This document shows, piece by piece, positions 2-40,210 of a stretch of DNA of 40,210 bases (positions within the stretch are counted from its first letter, which is position 1; each line of letters starts with the position of its first letter). A model generated the notes under the pieces. It saw only the letters and a list, made by a program, of their open reading frames with translations. It had not been told where the DNA came from and did no database searches. The position numbers were made by a program, and so were the translations under genes. This DNA is from an uncultured Bacteroidota bacterium (GTDB lineage Bacteria; Bacteroidota; Bacteroidia; AKYH767-A; 2013-40CM-41-45): assembly GCA_937871435.1 (NCBI GenBank), contig CALMQM010000003.1, positions 1-40,210 of the forward strand, given 5' to 3'.

Positions 2-1330
2 CTTACTGCCGGTTCTTATACTTACAACGTAACTGATGCTAACGGATGTACAGCTTCTTGTTCAGTGACAATCACTGAGCCTGCTGCATTGGTTGCTACA
101 TGTTCAGTTGTATCTCATGTTTCTTGTAATGGTGGAACTGACGGATCAGCTTCAGTAAGCGCTTCCGGTGGTACTGCTCCATACACTGGAACAGGTACCT
201 TCACAGGGCTTGCTGCCGGTTCTTATTCTTACAATGTAACTGATGCAAACGGTTGCACAGCTTCTTGTAATGTAGATATCAACGAGCCAGCTGCTCTTGT
301 AGCTTCTGCTACATCTACTCCTGCTTCTTGCCCAACTTGTTCTGACGGTACAGTTTCTATCGCTTCAGTTACAGGTGGTACACCAGCATATTCTTACACT
401 AACCTCACTGGTCTTCTGCCAGGCACTTATTGCATCACAGTAACTGATGCGAATGGTTGCTCAACTCAGGCTTGTGCTACTGTTGGTGCAACTGCTTGCA
501 GCCTTGTAGCTACATGTTCAGTTAACTCTAACGTTTCTTGTAACGGTGGATCTGATGGATCTGTAACTGTTAGCGCTTCTGGTGGTACTGCTCCATTCAC
601 AGGAACAGGTACTTTCTCAGGTCTTGCTGCCGGTTCTTATACTTATGTTGTAACTGATGCAAATAGCTGTTCATCTTCTTGCACAGTAACAATCACTGAG
701 CCTGCAGTTCTTGTAGCTACATGTTCAGTTGTATCTAACGTTTCTTGCAACGGCGGAAATGATGGTTCAGCATCTGTAAGTGCTTCAGGCGGTACTGCTC
801 CTTATAGCGGAACAGGTACATTCACCGGTCTTGCTGCAGGTTCTTATACTTACAACGTGTCTGACGCGAACGGATGTACTGCTTCTTGTTCAGTGACTAT
901 CACTGAGCCGGCTGCATTGTCTGCTTCAGCGAATGCAGGTTCAATTGCTTGTTTCGGTGGTTCAGCTTCAGTTGTAATCAGCGCTACAGGTGGTACTGCT
1001 CCATATTCAGGAACAGGAACATTTAACCAGTTTGCCGGTACTGTTACATATACTGTAACTGATGCTAACGGTTGTTCAGCTACAACTGATGTAACTCTCA
1101 CTGAGCCTACAAAAGTTGAAGGAACAACATCTACAGTTGCTGCTAACTGCGGATTTAATGATGGTTCTGCTACCGTAACTGCTTCAGGTGGTACTGGTTC
1201 TTATACTTACTCATGGGCACCGGGTGGTCAAACTACAGCTACAGCAACTAACCTTGCTGGCGGAACTTATGTAGTTACTATCACTGATGCAAATGGATGT
1301 ACTGGTTCTGCAACTGCTGTTGTAGGTGGA
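2..1330 (+). repeat. 207-bp tandem repeat array encoding SprB-type domains
   Basis: The repeat is visible at DNA level. The segment reading TCTTGCTGC (GLAAGSY codons) occurs at 1 (as TCTTACTGC), 622 and 829, and GGAACAGGTAC occurs at 188, 602 and 809. These spacings are exact multiples of 207 bp (69 codons). A more divergent unit fills the register between 188 and 602. The next unit, with GGAACAGG at 1010, is two codons shorter, and the units after it are more diverged. Such arrays are prone to recombination and to assembly collapse. Confidence 0.88.
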
Positions 1331-2932
1331 GTAGGTTCTGGTCCGGATCCAGCTGGTCCGATTTCTGGTCCTGCAGGCGCTTGCCGTAACAGTTCAGGAA
1401 TTGTTTACTCAATTGCTCCGGTTGCTGGTGCCAGTTCATACATCTGGTCATTGCCAGGTGGTGTAACAGGTTCTTCTACTACAAACAGTATTACTGTTGC
1501 CTTCGGTCCGGCTTCTGGTCCAGGAGCATTCAACGGTGGTTTCATTTGTGTAACTCCTGTAAATGCTTGTGGTAACGGTACTGCGGCTTGCTTGAACATT
1601 CCGGTTCTTACAGTTAAACCAGGTTTACCAAGTCTGATTTCAGGTACATTCCCTTCATGCGGACCTGCTACCTACACTTATTCTGTTTCTCCGATCGCTA
1701 ACGCTACAAACTATGTTTGGACTGTTACCGGTGCTGGTGTTTCTATCGTAAGTGGTCAGGGTACTAACAGTATCCAGGTATTCATCCCGGCTGGTATGGG
1801 TCAAGGTACTATCTCAGTGTATGGTCAAAACTGTGTAGGAAATGGTTCTGCACGTTCTACTTACCTGACTGGTGTACCAACTCACTCTAATGCTCTTGTT
1901 GGTCCTGGATTCGTATGTGCAGGTACAACTGGTGTAGCTTACTCTATGGGCCCTGTAAACGGTGCTACAAGCTATATCTGGTCTATCACAGGAAATGCTT
2001 CTATCGCAACTTCCAGTGGTCCTTCTTGTACAGTTGATTTCTCTCCAACATGGACAACAGGTGTACTTTCTGTAACAACTTCTAACTCTTGCGGTTCGTT
2101 CACAAGAACTTACACTCTGCAGTCTACTCCAGCTCAACCTGGAAGTATTTCTGGTCCTGGAAGCAACCTTTGCGGACAGTCTGGTGTAACGTATTCAATT
2201 GCTGCCGTAGCAGGTGCAACCGGATATACATGGACAGTTCCTGCAGGTGTTACTCCAACAACTCCGTTGACTGGAACATCCATCACTGTTAACTTCACAG
2301 CTGGTTTCACAAACACAGGTAATATCTGTGTATCTGCAACTAACTCATGTGGAACAGGAACAGCTCGTTGTTACTCTGTAACTGCCCGTCCGGCTGCTGC
2401 TGGAACAATCACTGGTCCTTCACCAGTATGTAAAACTTCAACTCAGGTTTACAGCATTTCTCCTGTTGCCGGTGCTGCAAGTTATACATGGTCTGTGACA
2501 GGTGGTGCTTCAATCATCCCTGGCGGAACTTCTGCTACTATCAACTTCAATACTGCATTGTCAAGTTCTGCAACTGTGAAAGTAAACGCGAACAACGCTT
2601 GTGGCGCTGGTCAACCAGGTCAGAAGATTGTTTCTGTTAACCTCGGTTGCCGTACAGCTCAGGAAGAACTGTCTGCTGTTCCAGCACTCAGCGCTTACCC
2701 GAACCCAACAAGCGGTATCTTCACATTGAACTTCAATGCTGATGTTAAGGCTAAATACACTGTGAAAGTGGTTGACCTCATCGGTAATGTAGTAATCAGT
2801 GATGTTGTTAGTGCTGTTGAAGGTGTTAACATGAAGGATCTTGATCTCAGCAAAGCTGCTAAAGGAATGTACTTACTGTCTCTCGAAAACGAAAGCGGTA
2901 ACGTACAAACTCTGCGCATCGTAGTTGAGTAA
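2..2932 (+). CDS. Giant SprB-repeat / PKD-like adhesin with T9SS type A sorting domain (5' end outside window)
   Basis: This is the C-terminal part of a large cell-surface or secreted repeat protein. The frame is open to the window's left edge and already reads repeat sequence there, so the true start lies upstream. From about 2 to 1330 it consists of SprB-type repeats of about 69 residues, with recurring motifs such as SCNGGxDGS, GTGTFTGLAAGSY, VTDANGC and VTITEP. From about 1345 to 2650 there are about five PKD-like repeats of roughly 85-90 residues, each with motifs like GPxxVC, YSIxPVxGAxxYxW and NxCGxG. The last 80 residues, beginning YPNPTSGIF, are a type A T9SS sorting domain ending TLRIVVE. 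SprB-family adhesins move along the surface in gliding Bacteroidota, but similar repeats also occur in non-gliders. Codon use is strongly biased (GCT, TCT, ACT, CGT, AAC), suggesting high expression. A perfect terminator follows the stop codon. Confidence 0.93.
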   Translation, partial: LTAGSYTYNVTDANGCTASCSVTITEPAALVATCSVVSHVSCNGGTDGSASVSASGGTAPYTGTGTFTGLAAGSYSYNVTDANGCTASCNVDINEPAALVASATSTPASCPTCSDGTVSIASVTGGTPAYSYTNLTGLLPGTYCITVTDANGCSTQACATVGATACSLVATCSVNSNVSCNGGSDGSVTVSASGGTAPFTGTGTFSGLAAGSYTYVVTDANSCSSSCTVTITEPAVLVATCSVVSNVSCNGGNDGSASVSASGGTAPYSGTGTFTGLAAGSYTYNVSDANGCTASCSVTITEPAALSASANAGSIACFGGSASVVISATGGTAPYSGTGTFNQFAGTVTYTVTDANGCSATTDVTLTEPTKVEGTTSTVAANCGFNDGSATVTASGGTGSYTYSWAPGGQTTATATNLAGGTYVVTITDANGCTGSATAVVGGVGSGPDPAGPISGPAGACRNSSGIVYSIAPVAGASSYIWSLPGGVTGSSTTNSITVAFGPASGPGAFNGGFICVTPVNACGNGTAACLNIPVLTVKPGLPSLISGTFPSCGPATYTYSVSPIANATNYVWTVTGAGVSIVSGQGTNSIQVFIPAGMGQGTISVYGQNCVGNGSARSTYLTGVPTHSNALVGPGFVCAGTTGVAYSMGPVNGATSYIWSITGNASIATSSGPSCTVDFSPTWTTGVLSVTTSNSCGSFTRTYTLQSTPAQPGSISGPGSNLCGQSGVTYSIAAVAGATGYTWTVPAGVTPTTPLTGTSITVNFTAGFTNTGNICVSATNSCGTGTARCYSVTARPAAAGTITGPSPVCKTSTQVYSISPVAGAASYTWSVTGGASIIPGGTSATINFNTALSSSATVKVNANNACGAGQPGQKIVSVNLGCRTAQEELSAVPALSAYPNPTSGIFTLNFNADVKAKYTVKVVDLIGNVVISDVVSAVEGVNMKDLDLSKAAKGMYLLSLENESGNVQTLRIVVE

Positions 2933-2946
2933 TCGATTCTCAGAAT

Positions 2947-2989
2947 AAAAAAAGAAGTCCTTCCCATTGGGAAGGACTTCTTTTTTTTT
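2947..2989 (+). terminator. Strong intrinsic terminator after the SprB-repeat gene
   Basis: A perfect inverted repeat (2947-2965 pairing with 2969-2987, three-base loop ATT) is followed by a run of T. The G+C-containing core is GAAGTCCTTCCC against GGGAAGGACTTC. It begins 15 bases after the TAA stop. The A-run on its left side means it could also act on the minus strand, but no gene ends there on that strand. Confidence 0.9.
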
Positions 2990-3464: not shown

Positions 3465-6400
3465 ATGAGATTTCATGAGAATTACGGAATCAGCATTATA
3501 AACAAAAAGAGTTTAGTAAAATTCTTTGTGCTTATTATTTGCGTTCTCTCATTTGAGAAGATGGATGCACAGACAGTGACTCTGCTTTCTCCGACAGGCG
3601 CCGGAGGATTTGAGTCGGGCACAACATTTTCAGCGAACGGTTGGACGGAAATCCAACCTGCAGGGGATAATCGCAAATGGCAGGTCGGAACAGCCGCCGG
3701 CTCGCAAGGTGGTACACGGGCAGCTTATGTTGGTTCATCAAGCAACAACAATGGTATTAATGCGGCAAAAGTGGATCACTTTTACAGGGATCTGGTAGTG
3801 CCTGCTAATGCCGTGAATGTTCAACTGAACTTTTATATAAAGCAAACAACAACTGATGATACCTATGATTATTTGTATGTGTTTACTACAAGTACTTCTA
3901 ATACTCCGGTAGCAGGAACGGTTCCCGGTGGAGGATATACACAAAGGTTTGTAAACACATCAACTTCTTATTCCGCTTTTACTGCAGTACCAACCATTAA
4001 CCTTTCTTCTGTTGCAGGCACAACAGTGAGGCTTGTCTTCACATTTGTTTCGGATGGAGTGAGTCCTCATGCTAATCCGGCAATCGATAATATATCATTT
4101 ACTTATGTGAATCCACAGGCTTGCACAGGAACGCCAGGTCCGGGGAACACGATTGCATCAATTGCCAATCCTGTTTGCACCGGCACATCTGTCGTACTAT
4201 CCTTGCAAAACCAGTCCTTTGATACAGGACTGAGTTATCAGTGGGAGTCTTCTTCCAATGGTACAAGCTGGAATATTATTCCAGCAGCCCAATCATCGAC
4301 TTATACAACTACAGCTCTCAGTACAACTTATTACAGAAATAAAGTGACCTGCAATAACTCCGGTCAGAATACTTATTCAACCGCGGTGCAGGTTCAATCC
4401 ATCGATTGTGTTTCCATGCAAAACGGAAGTATTACCAGTTGTTCCGCCAAATTCTATGATAGTGGAGGATCCGGTGGGTCGTATACAACGTATGAGGATT
4501 ATACATACACTTTTTATCCTACTCCTGGTAATAAGATTCGTGTTGTGTTCAATGCCTTCGATACGGAAAGTGGCTATGATTTCCTCACCATCCATGATGG
4601 AAATTCTGTTGGAGCTACACAACTTTTTTCCGGTTCGGGTTCCACACTACCGGGAACATTTACTTCATCCGCCGCGGACGGGAGTCTCACATTTCATTTT
4701 GTAAGTGATGGTTCTATCAGTTATACCGGATGGGATGCAACAATTTCCTGCCTGCCAATTCCGGCCTGTACAGGAAGTCCGGCTGCCGGAACCGTCACCG
4801 GTACAAGTACATTGTGCGCGGGGACTTCAACTGTACTCACAGCTTCCGGTGTAAGCACAGGATTTTCAGGTTTGCAATACCAATGGCAGGAATCAGATGA
4901 CAATGGTGTAACAGATAACTGGGCTGCAGTGGTAAGTGGGAGCGGGGCAACCGGCACTTCTTATACCAGTCCGGTTATGGTGAATTCAATTTATTACAGG
5001 ATGCTTGTGACCTGTTCCAACAGTAGTCAGTCATCCGCTTCACCCGGTGCATTGATCACTGTGAATCCATTGCCCGTTGTGAATCTGGCTGCGTCTTCAA
5101 CTATGATTTGTGGAACTGGGAGTGTGAATTTGAATGGCTTTGGAGCAAACTCTTATTCCTGGTCACCGGCTACAGGCTTGAATGTCACTACAGGTCCCAG
5201 TGTTATCGCCAGTCCTTCGGCTTCAACAACCTATACTGTTACAGGTACAACGAATTCTTGCAATGGAACTGCGTCAGTAACAATTAGTGTGTATCAAGCT
5301 GTGGGTAGTGTTAGTACTTCAGCTGACACAACTCAGGGGTGCGATCCCCTCACTACAGTTTTACATGCGAGTGCATGTTTGAACACCACTCCTACATTTA
5401 CAATTGATTCTTCTTCGACAAATTATTCGCCGTCCGGAGCTACCGGATTTCTTACCATGTCGAGTGCTGACGATGGATTCGCAAGTATTAATCTGCCTTT
5501 TAGTTTTAATTATTTTGGAAACACGTATACATCAGCATATGTTTCCACAAATGGTTTTCTCTCGTTCGGAACGAGTTCAACGACTCTTACAGCACAGTTG
5601 ATTCCCAATTCAACAACACCAAATAATATCGTTGCACTATGCTGGAATGATTTGCTTCATTCCGGAACTTCCACCGGTGTCGATACATTTACGGTCGGAA
5701 GTGTGGGAAGCAGAAAATTTGTGATTCGTTTCAATGCAGGTGCAGTTGCATTTTATAACATCGGTTCACAGACCGGTTCATTCGGTGGAAAAATAATTCT
5801 GCACGAAGGGACTAATAAGATTGAATTGAGAATTGATGTCATGAATATGGGAGTAATTACCGGAAGATTGAAAACACTCGGTGTGGAAAATTCGGATGGA
5901 ACCATAGGTATTGCCATGGCGGATAAAAATTATACTGACTGGAGTGTTTCCGGTCCTGTTACCTATGGATTTACTCCAGGCTTCAATTGTTCAGGTTCCG
6001 CGGGGATGAGTTATGCCTGGTTGCCTGCAACACAATTGACGAATGCGAATACTGCCAATCCGAATGTAACCTCATTAACTGCAAATACAACTTATACAGT
6101 TACTGCAACAAGCAGTTCAGGATGTAGCGCCACAAAAACTATTTCGCTGACGGTTTTTCCGCAACCTGCGGCTCCAACAATTTCAGCAAACGGCCCTTTG
6201 TCCTTCTGCCCGGGAGGAAATGTGATACTTACTTCTTCATCTCCGTCCAACAATCATTGGAGCACAGGTGAAACAAGTGTCTCGATCAATGTAAATTCTT
6301 CACAAGCCATTACCTTGTATACAACTGCCGGATTGTGTGCATCACAAATTAGTTCTTCTACAATTGTTCGGTATGATACAATTCAGCCACTGATCACAAT

Positions 6401-7685
6401 TTTAGGTGGAGGAGCATCTTTGTGCGGTGGAACCCGCGATTTGATTGCGGATGGCTCGCCACAGTATGTAAGCTGGAACTGGAGTACGAATGAAACGACA
6501 CAAGGAATCAATGTTAATTCAGCGGGCACTTATTCAGTGGTCACAACAGATTTAAATGGTTGTATTGAGCATAACGCTTTTGTTCTCTATCCAGGTACTG
6601 CGCCTGTAGCACCAATCATTTCCACATCCAGTGCATTGCAGGTATGTAACAATGATCTCGTTACGATACAATCGGATTTAAGCGACAACATAGTATGGTC
6701 CCCAACTTTTGATAATTCAGCTTCGATTACTTATAATTTATCTCCTCCCGGAAGTTATGATTTCTTTGTTACCAGAGATTCATTGGGATGTTATTCGGAA
6801 TCGAATCATCTCACTTTTACGGTAAATCCGGTTCCTGAAATTTATTCATTCCTTCCCGCAGATTCCGCTTGTCCGGGCGATATTGTAACTCTGTCCGGAT
6901 CCGGATTTTCAGGCGTGACCGGAATTTCTTTTAACGGTGTTAATGTTGTTGCATTTAATGTCATGGACGATTATACCATTGAGGCTACAATTCCGGACGG
7001 CGCCAGTTCAGGACCTGTAATATTAACGGATAATGTAACAGGTTGTATTGGAGTAGGACCGGTGTTCAATATTAAGAGCAGTTGCGTTTCTACTGTTACA
7101 CTGCAGTTGAAATTATATCTGCAGGGATATTATTTATCCGGAGGTTCCATGAATGCCGCATTATACAATGCAGGAGTGAGCTTGTCTTCCCTGGATTGTG
7201 ATACCATTCATGTTTGTCTGATGGATGCGAATACTTTTGCAACGGTGGAATGTTCGGAGGTAATTTTATCTGTCGATGGAATCGCGTCGTGTGAATTTTC
7301 GCCCTTGACAAACAATCAGGATTATTTCATCCGTGTAACTCATCGGAGTGCATTGGAAACATGGTCTTCGGCCTTGGTAAAAATGCAATCACTCACAAAT
7401 TATGATTTTAGTGCTGATGCTACGAACGCGTATGCCTCTAATGAAGTTGAAGTGGAACCCGGTGTTTGGGCTTTCTGGAACGGAGATGTTTCTGATGGTA
7501 ACACCACCGGCTTTCAGGATGGATTTGTCGAATCCAGCGATTACAGTGCGATAGAAAACGGATCACAATCATTCCTGTTTGGATATGAAGTGCAGGATAT
7601 CACGGGTGATGGATTGGTTGAATCTTCCGACTATGGAATGATTGAAAACAATAGTCAGCTCTTTATTATTTCTGCTCATCCATAA
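3465..7685 (+). CDS. Multidomain secreted protein with CUB domain, Ig/PKD-like domains and a dockerin-like C-terminal module
   Basis: A 1406-residue exported protein. An N-terminal hydrophobic signal (about residues 15-36, ending MDAQ) follows a rather long polar start. Residues of about 45-217 look like a MAM or jelly-roll type domain. An Ig-like segment follows, then a CUB-like domain (about 315-429, with YDFLTIHDG and SDGSxxYTGWDA). Further Ig/PKD-like segments (SYSWSPATGL, TTYTVTATSS) surround a module near 650-850 containing FNYFGNTYTSAYVSTNGF and LHEGTNKIELRI, which resembles extracellular beta-rich domains common in Bacteroidota. An IPT/TIG-like segment (SFLPADSACPGDIVTLSGSG) precedes residues 1211-1406, a module shared with the partial gene at the right edge of the window. 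That module has two Asp-rich loops (starting at residues 1341 and 1378, the latter DITGDGLVESSDY). No type A PNP motif is present, so the shared module may replace the usual sorting domain. Substrate and partner are unknown. Confidence 0.88.
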   Translation: MRFHENYGISIINKKSLVKFFVLIICVLSFEKMDAQTVTLLSPTGAGGFESGTTFSANGWTEIQPAGDNRKWQVGTAAGSQGGTRAAYVGSSSNNNGINAAKVDHFYRDLVVPANAVNVQLNFYIKQTTTDDTYDYLYVFTTSTSNTPVAGTVPGGGYTQRFVNTSTSYSAFTAVPTINLSSVAGTTVRLVFTFVSDGVSPHANPAIDNISFTYVNPQACTGTPGPGNTIASIANPVCTGTSVVLSLQNQSFDTGLSYQWESSSNGTSWNIIPAAQSSTYTTTALSTTYYRNKVTCNNSGQNTYSTAVQVQSIDCVSMQNGSITSCSAKFYDSGGSGGSYTTYEDYTYTFYPTPGNKIRVVFNAFDTESGYDFLTIHDGNSVGATQLFSGSGSTLPGTFTSSAADGSLTFHFVSDGSISYTGWDATISCLPIPACTGSPAAGTVTGTSTLCAGTSTVLTASGVSTGFSGLQYQWQESDDNGVTDNWAAVVSGSGATGTSYTSPVMVNSIYYRMLVTCSNSSQSSASPGALITVNPLPVVNLAASSTMICGTGSVNLNGFGANSYSWSPATGLNVTTGPSVIASPSASTTYTVTGTTNSCNGTASVTISVYQAVGSVSTSADTTQGCDPLTTVLHASACLNTTPTFTIDSSSTNYSPSGATGFLTMSSADDGFASINLPFSFNYFGNTYTSAYVSTNGFLSFGTSSTTLTAQLIPNSTTPNNIVALCWNDLLHSGTSTGVDTFTVGSVGSRKFVIRFNAGAVAFYNIGSQTGSFGGKIILHEGTNKIELRIDVMNMGVITGRLKTLGVENSDGTIGIAMADKNYTDWSVSGPVTYGFTPGFNCSGSAGMSYAWLPATQLTNANTANPNVTSLTANTTYTVTATSSSGCSATKTISLTVFPQPAAPTISANGPLSFCPGGNVILTSSSPSNNHWSTGETSVSINVNSSQAITLYTTAGLCASQISSSTIVRYDTIQPLITILGGGASLCGGTRDLIADGSPQYVSWNWSTNETTQGINVNSAGTYSVVTTDLNGCIEHNAFVLYPGTAPVAPIISTSSALQVCNNDLVTIQSDLSDNIVWSPTFDNSASITYNLSPPGSYDFFVTRDSLGCYSESNHLTFTVNPVPEIYSFLPADSACPGDIVTLSGSGFSGVTGISFNGVNVVAFNVMDDYTIEATIPDGASSGPVILTDNVTGCIGVGPVFNIKSSCVSTVTLQLKLYLQGYYLSGGSMNAALYNAGVSLSSLDCDTIHVCLMDANTFATVECSEVILSVDGIASCEFSPLTNNQDYFIRVTHRSALETWSSALVKMQSLTNYDFSADATNAYASNEVEVEPGVWAFWNGDVSDGNTTGFQDGFVESSDYSAIENGSQSFLFGYEVQDITGDGLVESSDYGMIENNSQLFIISAHP

Positions 7686-20318: not shown

Positions 20319-21380
20319 ATGAAAAATATATTGAAAGGCAAAAAGTTCCTGGCAGGTGTGCTGACGGTGTTGATGCCTGTTATTTCCTATGCAGGTAATC
20401 CGGACCGTGCCGGTCAGGCAGGAGCTTCAGAGCTTCTGATTAATCCCTGGGCCAGATCAACCGGATGGGGTGGAGCTAACAGCGGTTCTGTTCATGGTCT
20501 TGAAGCTTCATTCCTGAATGTTGCAGGTATCGCCTTCACCAAGAAAACAGAAGTTTTGTTTAGCCACACGATGTACCTCAAAGGAAGCGGCATCACCATG
20601 AATACTTTTGGGTTGAGCCAAAAAGTCGGCGAAGCAGGTGTACTTGGACTTTCAGTGATGTCTATGGATTTCGGAGATATTCAAGTCACAACCTTTGATG
20701 CTCCGGAAGGTGGGTTGGGAAATTATTCTCCTCAGTACATTAACCTCGGACTTTCTTACGCGAAGATTTTTTCCAACTCAATTTATGGTGGACTTACACT
20801 GAAAGTGATCAACGAGAATATCTCTAACGTCTCCGCAAAAGGAATTGCCATTGATGCGGGTATTCAATACGTAACAGGAAATAATGAGGATAAAGACAAT
20901 ATCAAATTTGGTATTGCTTTGAAAAATGTTGGTACCCCATTGAAATTCGGAGGTGACGGTTTGTCTACCCGCGCTCCGATTTCTTCCGGAGTTTATCAGC
21001 TTACCGTTGAACAACGCTCGCAGGGATTTGAAATTCCTTCATTGATTAATATCGGGGCCGCGTATGATATCAGTCTTGCGAAAGAACACCGTCTGACTGT
21101 TGCAGCAACATTTACTTCCAACTCATTTACTAACGACCAGTATATAGGCGGTCTTGAATATGCTTTCAAGGAAATGTTTATGCTTCGTGGAGGATACACC
21201 TACGAAACGGATCTTTTTGATGATAACCTGCGGACAACTGTGTATTCAGGTCCATCAGCTGGTCTGACCATTGAAGTACCAATGGGCAAAACCGGAAAGA
21301 AATTTGGTATTGATTATTCCTTCCGTGCGACCGATCCTTACGATGGCGTACACTCTTTTGGTGTAAAATTCACCTTGTAA
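20319..21380 (+). CDS. PorV/PorQ-family outer-membrane protein
   Basis: A 353-residue outer-membrane beta-barrel with a signal peptide (about 1-25, ending ISYA). The mature start (RAGQAGASELLINPWARSTGWGGANSG, then GLEASFLNVAGIAF) matches the PorV/PorQ group, related to the FadL-type barrels. The alternating hydrophobic and glycine-rich strands run to the C-terminus HSFGVKFTL. PorV (LptO) in Porphyromonas acts in T9SS as a shuttle that takes cargo from the translocon to the attachment complex. Whether this copy is the general PorV or a dedicated paralogue for the exoprotein upstream cannot be decided here. It is the last gene of the operon, 41 bases after the exoprotein. Its final codons contain the TTG of the candidate greA promoter. 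Confidence 0.85.
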   Translation: MKNILKGKKFLAGVLTVLMPVISYAGNPDRAGQAGASELLINPWARSTGWGGANSGSVHGLEASFLNVAGIAFTKKTEVLFSHTMYLKGSGITMNTFGLSQKVGEAGVLGLSVMSMDFGDIQVTTFDAPEGGLGNYSPQYINLGLSYAKIFSNSIYGGLTLKVINENISNVSAKGIAIDAGIQYVTGNNEDKDNIKFGIALKNVGTPLKFGGDGLSTRAPISSGVYQLTVEQRSQGFEIPSLINIGAAYDISLAKEHRLTVAATFTSNSFTNDQYIGGLEYAFKEMFMLRGGYTYETDLFDDNLRTTVYSGPSAGLTIEVPMGKTGKKFGIDYSFRATDPYDGVHSFGVKFTL

Positions 21381-38360: not shown

Positions 38361-40210
38361 TTATGGATGCAGCGAGAACAGGAATAACACAATATTGTTT
38401 TCAACCAGACTGTAATCAGAAGATTCCACGAGACCATCACCTGTGATGTCATTTACATCATATCCGAAAATAAATGTATTCGCGGCATTTTCGAGTTGAG
38501 AATAATCGCCTGATTCAATGATGCCATCCTGTACACCACTTGTAAAGCCATCACTGATATCGCCGCTCCAGAATGCCCAAACACCTGGCTCTACCTCGGT
38601 CATGTTGTATGCATAAGCTTGAGTATTACTTTGAGTGAAATCATAACCAGTTGCTCCAAGGAGAGTGACCGGCGAAGCGCTCCATGTCTCAAGTGCATTT
38701 CGATGTTTCACCTGGATATAATAATCAGAACCGCCAAGAGTCGACGGGAACGTGCAAGTTAAATTTCCATTGATTGAAACAATACCCTGGAAACAAGCAA
38801 CAGGAGAAATAGTGTTCGGATCAATCAGGCAAACGGTGAGCGTATCACAATCATCCGGATTAGTACTGAGTCCTGAATTGAACAAAGGAGAATTCATGGT
38901 TCCGGATCCGATGTAATAACCCTGGAAGAAAACTTTCAATGCCAAAGTATCATAGAGCGGTTCAACAGTCACTATCTGGTTACACGTTGTAGAATTGCCA
39001 TGTACGTCAGTCGCAGTCCATACCACAGTTGTGATTCCAATCGGGAATACTGCCGGTGCGTTATTGACAATATTCAGGATTCCGCAATTATCATTTGCGA
39101 TTGGAGTGCCGAGCGCGGGTATAGTATCGTAAGTAGTAAAATCAGCAGGACAAGATAAAGTAGGGAATTCACTGTCGCTGACATTTATGGTAAGCAGACA
39201 ACTCGATGTGTTTCCGCTGTTGTCTGTTGCAGTCCATGTTACTAACGTCGTGCCTACAGGATATGGCCCGGGAGGGGAATACGTAATTGAAGTGATTGTG
39301 CAATTGTCAGTTGCTGTTGCCGGATCAAGCGCTGCTGAATATTCACATGCACCGGCATCAGCGGTTACATTAAGTGTATTTTGACATTGAACTATTGGGA
39401 CGATGGTATCAATCACCTGTACAGTAAAGCTGCAAGAATCAATACCGCATAGATTGCTTGCTCGAATGGTAACAAGTGTGGTACCCAATTCGAATACAGA
39501 ACCATTTCCACTACCTGAACCACTGCCTGTTGTACTGCCGGAGAAAGTGTAGCTTAAATCCGGTGAAGTGCCGTCTACAACGGGTTCGGGATAAAATACC
39601 TGAGTTGAACAGGAATTTGACGGACTGTATTCAATGACATTCGGGCTGCAGGAAATTGTTGGCACAAAACAAGAAGCAATGAATGTTGCATGAATGGTAG
39701 AGTTTGCTGAGAGGTTGTTGAACGTGTAACTAGAAACCGCTCCTACGCTCACTCCATTTACCAATACATCCAGAATCAGGTAGGATGAATCAGGTGTGAT
39801 TGTATACAATTGAGTACTTCCGCAAGGAAGTGTAAGTGATCCCGAAGGTGAAATAGAGCCATTGACTCCGGCACTTGCGACGATTGTATAGTTGATCAAA
39901 ACGAAACTTGCACTGATAGAATGTGAGGAAGTGACACCAGAAAAAGTGTAGGAGTTGATTGCTCCCTGCGAAACTCCATCGACAATAACATCTTCAATCG
40001 CAAAACATGGATCAGGAGTGATGGAATAGCTTTGATCATTTCCACATAAAACAGTTGAAGTTCCGAGCGGAGTAATGCTTCCGTTCGAACCTGCTGAGGA
40101 AGTGATGCTATAACTCAGCTGAACGAATGTCGCGCTGATCGTATGCGAAGCGGAAGTGTTCGTGAATGTATAAGAAGTAATTGCTCCCTGTGAAACACCG
40201 TCTACCAAAA
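38361..40210 (-). CDS. Surface repeat protein with HYR domains and dockerin-like C-terminal module (5' end outside window)
   Basis: The last 616 residues of a large exported protein whose start lies beyond the right edge; the frame is open there and is already in repeat sequence. From 40210 down to about 39660 there are two and a half repeats of 74 residues (SITSSAGSNGSITPLG, YSITPDPCFAIEDVIVDGVSQGAI), of the InlB-B/bacterial-repeat type. From about 39655 to 38955 come three HYR-like domains (LGTTLVTIRASNLCG, YPVGTTLVTWTATDNSGNTSSC, FPIGITTVVWTATDVHGNSTTC). The final 196 residues (38364 to about 38951) match the C-terminus of the exoprotein at 3465-7685, with HRNALETWSA, EVEPGVWAFWSGDISDG and the loop DITGDGLVESSDY, ending LFSLHP. 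No type A or type B sorting domain follows. Confidence 0.88.
   Translation of the reverse strand, partial: LVDGVSQGAITSYTFTNTSASHTISATFVQLSYSITSSAGSNGSITPLGTSTVLCGNDQSYSITPDPCFAIEDVIVDGVSQGAINSYTFSGVTSSHSISASFVLINYTIVASAGVNGSISPSGSLTLPCGSTQLYTITPDSSYLILDVLVNGVSVGAVSSYTFNNLSANSTIHATFIASCFVPTISCSPNVIEYSPSNSCSTQVFYPEPVVDGTSPDLSYTFSGSTTGSGSGSGNGSVFELGTTLVTIRASNLCGIDSCSFTVQVIDTIVPIVQCQNTLNVTADAGACEYSAALDPATATDNCTITSITYSPPGPYPVGTTLVTWTATDNSGNTSSCLLTINVSDSEFPTLSCPADFTTYDTIPALGTPIANDNCGILNIVNNAPAVFPIGITTVVWTATDVHGNSTTCNQIVTVEPLYDTLALKVFFQGYYIGSGTMNSPLFNSGLSTNPDDCDTLTVCLIDPNTISPVACFQGIVSINGNLTCTFPSTLGGSDYYIQVKHRNALETWSASPVTLLGATGYDFTQSNTQAYAYNMTEVEPGVWAFWSGDISDGFTSGVQDGIIESGDYSQLENAANTFIFGYDVNDITGDGLVESSDYSLVENNIVLFLFSLHP
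39739..40210 (-). repeat. 222-bp tandem repeat encoding the 74-residue domains
   Basis: The codons for DGVSQGAI and its variant NGVSVGAV (plus strand GCTCCCTG or GCTCCTAC) occur at 39739, 39961 and 40183, exactly 222 bases apart. The two units nearest the window edge are more alike at DNA level than the innermost one. The array probably continues beyond the edge. Confidence 0.75.

Follow-up and report, generated by a model that had tools for sequence, protein, structure and literature searches.

Type II X-dockerins (XDoc), such as those of CipA and CipB of C. thermocellum and ScaA of Acetivibrio (PDB 2b59, 4u3s, 4wi0, 5m0y), consist of an X-module followed by a dockerin and serve for attachment to the cell surface (PMC12484212). 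A module with the same order of halves, a similar full-length fold and the same terminal place ends the 1406-residue exoprotein encoded at positions 3465-7685 (plus strand) of a 40,210-nucleotide stretch from an uncultured Bacteroidota bacterium (contig CALMQM010000003.1); below, this whole stretch is called the window and the genome it comes from the home genome. In contrast to the type II XDoc, to which it shows only 10-17% sequence identity, the module is carried by exoproteins and not by scaffoldins, its putative receptor has a tail of the type IX secretion system (T9SS) instead of Gram-positive wall anchoring, and this partner is no Pfam cohesin. As to the type I dockerins of C. thermocellum enzymes, they have in common with the module the loop register D1-x-N3-x-D5-G-x-x-x-x-x-D12, a duplicated recognition surface (as in the dual binding mode) and a clasp of an aromatic residue and proline, which in the module is a predicted one (PMC4728124); the module, however, stays below the cut-off of the Dockerin_1 family, has other loop words and always includes the X-module. 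The T9SS sorting domains of types A, B and C (TIGR04183, TIGR04131, cl41395) occupy the same C-terminal slot in the same kinds of exoproteins, but the module lacks any sequence match to them and has another fold, the type A domain being found on the partner instead; a review of these three tail types (PMC10202324) does not have the module among them.

The nearest published idea that we found (PMC8542988) is the complex of 'Ca. Stygibacter' (Cloacimonadota), in which dockerin-ended proteins and enzymes, together with a cohesin scaffold bearing a T9SS-type C-terminal domain, were proposed from annotation to be attached to the cell surface. Unlike the pair described here, that complex is built of recognisable dockerin and cohesin domains, with tandem cohesins and carbohydrate-binding modules (CBMs), and the passage devoted to it presents no evidence of gene adjacency, loop words or an X-module. 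No published description of such a module and receptor was found when the CC-licensed literature of PubMed Central was searched for dockerins in connection with the T9SS. By analogy, the docking would resemble the anchoring of cellulosomal X-dockerins, with sequences that lie outside the Pfam families; a plug-like tail and a neighbour's socket holding its own ticket to the surface would thus probably represent an undescribed mode of surface attachment.

We propose, with a probability of roughly three in four, that the module and the product of an adjacent gene form a cohesin/X-dockerin pair for surface docking, the receptor of which is sorted by the T9SS. The X-dockerin, located at the extreme C-terminus of large Sec-exported exoproteins, would dock them, presumably in a calcium-dependent manner, on a cohesin-like receptor encoded beside at least one dockerin gene, and the receptor's own type A tail would bring it to the cell surface and hold it there. 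Each genome has one loop word, present in both loops and in the paralogues, so that several exoproteins could share one receptor.

The module and its predicted fold

The 1406-residue protein begins with a signal-peptide-like segment ending in AQ and contains CUB (4.6e-8) and Ig-like (Ig_7, 5.7e-9) Pfam domains, followed by the X-dockerin-like module, which is about 195-196 residues long; its conserved part begins at about residue 1211, in agreement with the boundary drawn in an earlier note on this DNA. The upstream half (7095-7475, plus strand, module residues 1-127) is an X-module-like beta-sandwich with the conserved motif HR(N/S)(S/A)(L/I)ETWS, modelled with pLDDT 97 and matched by X-dockerins, while the dockerin-like half (7476-7682, plus strand) holds, according to the AlphaFold2 model and the PDB dockerin matches, two loop-helix motifs of the calcium type (approximately 7485-7566 and 7596-7662). 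The second module of the window (38364-38948) belongs to a 615-residue exoprotein with HYR domains, encoded on the minus strand at 38361-40208, whose 5' end is lost at the contig edge. The earlier note had described a full-length module common to both genes, about two-thirds identical by eye over the last 78 residues and with two Asp loops and a final HP in each copy. This description proved accurate: the modules have 105 identities over 193 aligned residues and 53 over the last 78 (68%), both possess the two loops and the HP end, and their Smith-Waterman score is 601 against 55 at most in 500 shuffles. Since the home genome contains 11 copies (E 4e-30 or better in the genome search) and a search through 84,980 species genomes, from which 79 loci were kept for analysis, retrieved at least 545 candidate stretches encoding relatives in other genomes, the resemblance of the window pair is not a matter of chance.

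The AlphaFold2 model of the module, built on an alignment of 72 relatives, has pLDDT 97.1 and pTM 0.92. Each of its eight best PDB matches (VIA) is a chain with a type II X-dockerin of C. thermocellum or Acetivibrio, either by itself or within a scaffoldin construct; these matches span residues 1-196 with Z 10.8-12.4 versus 6.1 for the next best match, and Foldseek likewise places type II X-dockerin chains at ranks 1-7. The dockerin-like layout noticed earlier in the loops is part of a predicted full-length X-dockerin fold: on this model, the module is a beta-sandwich X-module directly preceding a two-motif dockerin, with helices 147-158 and 177-187 following the Asp loops (DSSP). The A2 family sequence profile matches PDB dockerins (best E 1.7e-6). 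At the same time, no Pfam or NCBIfam family model exceeds its cut-off on the module, and Dockerin_1 (PF00404) gives 14.6 and 15.5 bits under a curated cut-off of 22.9; judging by sequence, the module would be a divergent dockerin branch outside the called members of the Pfam family.

The C-terminal Pro196 is conserved in 72 of 72 relatives, and residue 128 is Tyr, Phe or Trp in 68 of them. From their positions, rather than from coordinates, these residues would form a dockerin clasp, the role played in a C. thermocellum dockerin by Tyr-5 and Pro-66 (PMC4728124). The EF-hand-like loops and this predicted clasp would stabilise the end of the protein, and one might suppose that the module is nothing more than a C-terminal cap, stabilised by calcium, which shields exoproteins and lacks a partner of its own. 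We consider this highly improbable, as a cap leaves unexplained both the conserved neighbour and the genome-specific loop words described below.

The neighbouring gene of a putative receptor

When the genes flanking the module genes of the 79 loci were clustered without prior assumption, the most recurrent neighbour family proved to encode proteins in which an N-terminal domain of some 175 residues is joined by further repeats and a type A tail; its genes lie mostly downstream of the module gene, in the same orientation. TIGR04183 scored 30.8-51.2 bits (cut-off 23) at the C-terminus of seven of the eight receptors scanned, the eighth sequence being cut by the locus end. The top 18 PDB matches of the N-terminal domain (VIA) are all cohesins (Z 8.1-9.1); further down, cohesins are accompanied by the related CBM3 fold, with Z up to 8.1, the model used having pLDDT 67. 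On this model, a cohesin fold of the domain is probable. Thus, among the roles between which the earlier note did not choose, namely a T9SS export signal, a surface anchor and a docking partner, docking has gained the most support, from the X-dockerin fold and the adjacent cohesin-like, type A-tailed gene.

Among 395 genomes sampled across the phylum, 46 (about one in nine) contain the module. A receptor profile of 30 sequences, applied to whole genomes with the best eight candidates per genome scored, found the receptor domain in 24 of the 395, i.e., in 19 of the 46 module-positive and five of the 349 module-negative ones (p 1e-15 by genome, p 4e-5 at the family level). In 17 of the 19 genomes, distributed over 10 families and with the home genome among them, the receptor gene comes next after a module gene and is read in the same direction; 11 of these 17 contributed nothing to the profile. 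Two of the module-negative receptor genomes (G341 and G059) have a diverged module just upstream of the receptor, and one more (G389) has a weak module match (E 0.03) in this position. In the locus set, the receptor lies directly downstream of 16 of the 80 testable module genes. Two candidates were set aside: the standard Pfam cohesin, which is absent from the home genome, though found in 40 of the 80 genomes searched, and a neighbour at locus L027, which aligned with the cohesin-like set, was missed by the final profile and is not counted.

The only clear receptor match in the home genome is on contig C14, where the gene starts 119 nucleotides after the stop codon of the gene of a 4101-residue module protein and runs through SprB-like repeats off the contig end. 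In the window, the gene at 2-2932 (plus strand), probably the C-terminal part of a cohesin-like receptor gene, opens inside SprB-like tandem repeats, its start lying beyond the contig edge, and ends with a T9SS type A tail (TIGR04183, 39.8 bits). Repeat units at least 90% identical to the query unit were found only in the frames at the end of C14 and at the start of C3, the contig of the window. These sequence data suggest that the C14 receptor and gene 2-2932 are probably two halves of one gene split in assembly, in which case the joined order would probably be module gene, receptor, module gene 3465-7685; as no exact sequence overlap was found between C14 and the window start, the link between the halves is inferred. 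A terminator-like hairpin (2947-2987, plus strand) follows the putative receptor part. One more, strong hairpin (L013:12570-12691, -23.9 kcal/mol, z -6.0), with a short pyrimidine-rich stretch after it, is located between the gene of the 4101-residue module protein and the receptor.

Several observations weigh against a cohesin-like partner of the module. The AlphaFold model of the receptor domain is moderate (pLDDT 67, pTM 0.70), Foldseek gives no match to it with E below 0.001, PF00963 is found in none of seven receptor domains at E up to 1, and the hhalign profile-profile comparison of the domain with cohesin is not significant. Furthermore, the receptor was not detected, at the sensitivity of this search, in 27 of the 46 module-positive genomes, and, given the hairpins between the home genes and after 2-2932, co-transcription cannot be taken as given. 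A sequence search of the PDB with the cohesin-like profile retrieved only a CBM3 (E 0.083). As sequence methods reveal no cohesin homology, the assignment rests on the predicted fold and on the dockerin fold encoded next door.

Six module proteins of the locus set themselves hold cohesin-like domains, and in three of them two such domains precede the terminal X-dockerin-like module, an arrangement known from adaptor scaffoldins. Scaffoldin-like proteins of this architecture are encoded at L056:4851-6572, L062 and L072. This would be in line with a pairing that builds a secreted scaffoldin-like network rather than anchors proteins to the surface of the producer. Most adjacent receptors, however, hold a single cohesin-like domain and a terminal type A tail, and we find the network improbable, even if the tail is not decisive, because type A substrates may be either anchored or released.

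Loop words, terminal position and T9SS co-occurrence

In cellulosomal dockerins, the recognition residues occupy loop positions of about 11-12 and 18-19, each repeat mirroring the other (PMC4728124). We compared 14 positions in each loop of the module and found that loop 1 and loop 2 of the same module have an identity of 0.58, which falls to 0.49 when the two loops are taken from different modules of one genome and to 0.22 across genomes, the maximum in permutations being 0.29. With the sandwich identity held at 35-50%, the likeness of the words is 0.50-0.59 in the same genome versus 0.27-0.29 otherwise. Recent gene conversion was considered as the source of the common words and rejected: codon identity at the shared residues of ten home copies (0.467) differs little from the value that codon usage predicts (0.440), which indicates that the agreement is kept by selection and not by recent copying. 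Such a pattern is expected if one face of the receptor reads both loops. The words and the receptor domains also covary when the sandwich is accounted for (partial r 0.54, p 6e-4, n=11).

The earlier note regarded the module as a substitute for a canonical T9SS sorting domain, a view that the home genome supports. This genome is strongly T9SS-positive, with SprA and no fewer than 150 type A tails; a known T9SS tail is absent from all nine full-length home module proteins scanned, and the NCBIfam sorting-domain models, TIGR04183 and TIGR04131 have no match at E up to 1 in the module or the 1406-residue protein. Ten of the 11 home copies stop exactly at the stop codon, with the ending [HRKQT]P. 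The eleventh is internal, near the N-terminus of a 2869-residue protein with a typical type A tail at the other end, and its loops lack the ES-x-DYS-x-IEN words carried by the others; this copy (L021, G000:C121:40200-50200, minus strand), with the loop words ND-C-D-EP and DV-F-D, is possibly a dockerin of another specificity.

Among the complete homologues, the terminal position, which the earlier note wanted checked, is kept as well: 77 of 78 complete frames end in proline (65), proline plus one residue (11) or proline plus two residues (1), and the remaining one looks frameshifted. No type A or B domain was found behind any of the terminal copies examined, a point also raised in that note. 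Remote members carry HRNHLA as their sandwich motif, and most of them terminate in VP plus 0-3 residues. All 79 kept loci are in Bacteroidota records, one of Ignavibacteria among them, and the presence of the module in records named Sphingobacterium thalpophilum (L078) and Ignavibacteria (L090) means that it is not confined to one class. As for genomes devoid of the T9SS, SprA is present in 46 of the 46 module-positive genomes and the module in none of the 91 SprA-less ones (p 3e-6 by genome); as the latter represent only five of 171 genera, this co-occurrence is weak evidence of T9SS dependence. Frames of about 2000-2400 residues in the genomes G160, G109, G314, G168, G212, G279, G287 and G178 match the profile in its dockerin half alone, and the same frame also contains a cohesin-like match in G160 and a PF00963 cohesin match in G279.

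These data invite a different explanation, according to which the module is itself a T9SS sorting domain, of a class additional to A, B and C, and is read by the T9SS or by a dedicated shuttle, the cohesin-like neighbour being accessory or coincidental. Its strictly terminal place with the fixed final proline, the absence of known sorting tails from the nine home proteins, the type A tail of the protein with the sole internal home copy, the constant presence of SprA and the cargo domains typical of T9SS substrates (PF23759 GBD_T9SS_assoc and SprB repeats) all speak for it. We still believe it to be unlikely, since the fold is that of an X-dockerin and not of a T9SS tail (the C-terminal domain of mirolase matches the module model with Z 4.8 only), the genome-specific loop words fit a variable partner rather than a conserved translocon, and the adjacent gene encodes a partner that bears a type A tail itself.

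Elsewhere in the window, 20319-21380 encodes an outer-membrane protein of the PorV/PorQ family (NF033709, E 4.8e-45), which scores under the thresholds for PorV and PorQ themselves; it adjoins a 1328-residue protein and a TonB-dependent-receptor-like gene.

Possible export routes of the exoproteins and significance of the proposed pair

Because the scanned module proteins have no known T9SS tail, two main routes across the outer membrane come into question: either the protein leaves in a complex with the receptor, or the T9SS recognises the module itself. In the first case, the dockerin-bearing exoprotein would fold in the periplasm and bind the receptor there, and the pair would exit by means of the receptor's type A signal. 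We put this forward tentatively, as a possible but doubtful extension of the docking pair. If it is true, the T9SS exports proteins that have no T9SS signal, picked by a genome-specific plug-and-socket code.

In general, predictions of T9SS secretomes count tails of types A, B and C, and the module would add to them a class of surface proteins missed by the current models. Docking of the cohesin-dockerin kind would extend to the Gram-negative surface, with a concrete receptor-ligand pair, the genome-specific loop words would provide naturally occurring plug-socket pairs that are orthogonal to one another, and the crossing of the outer membrane by exoproteins devoid of a signal of their own would become a testable question.

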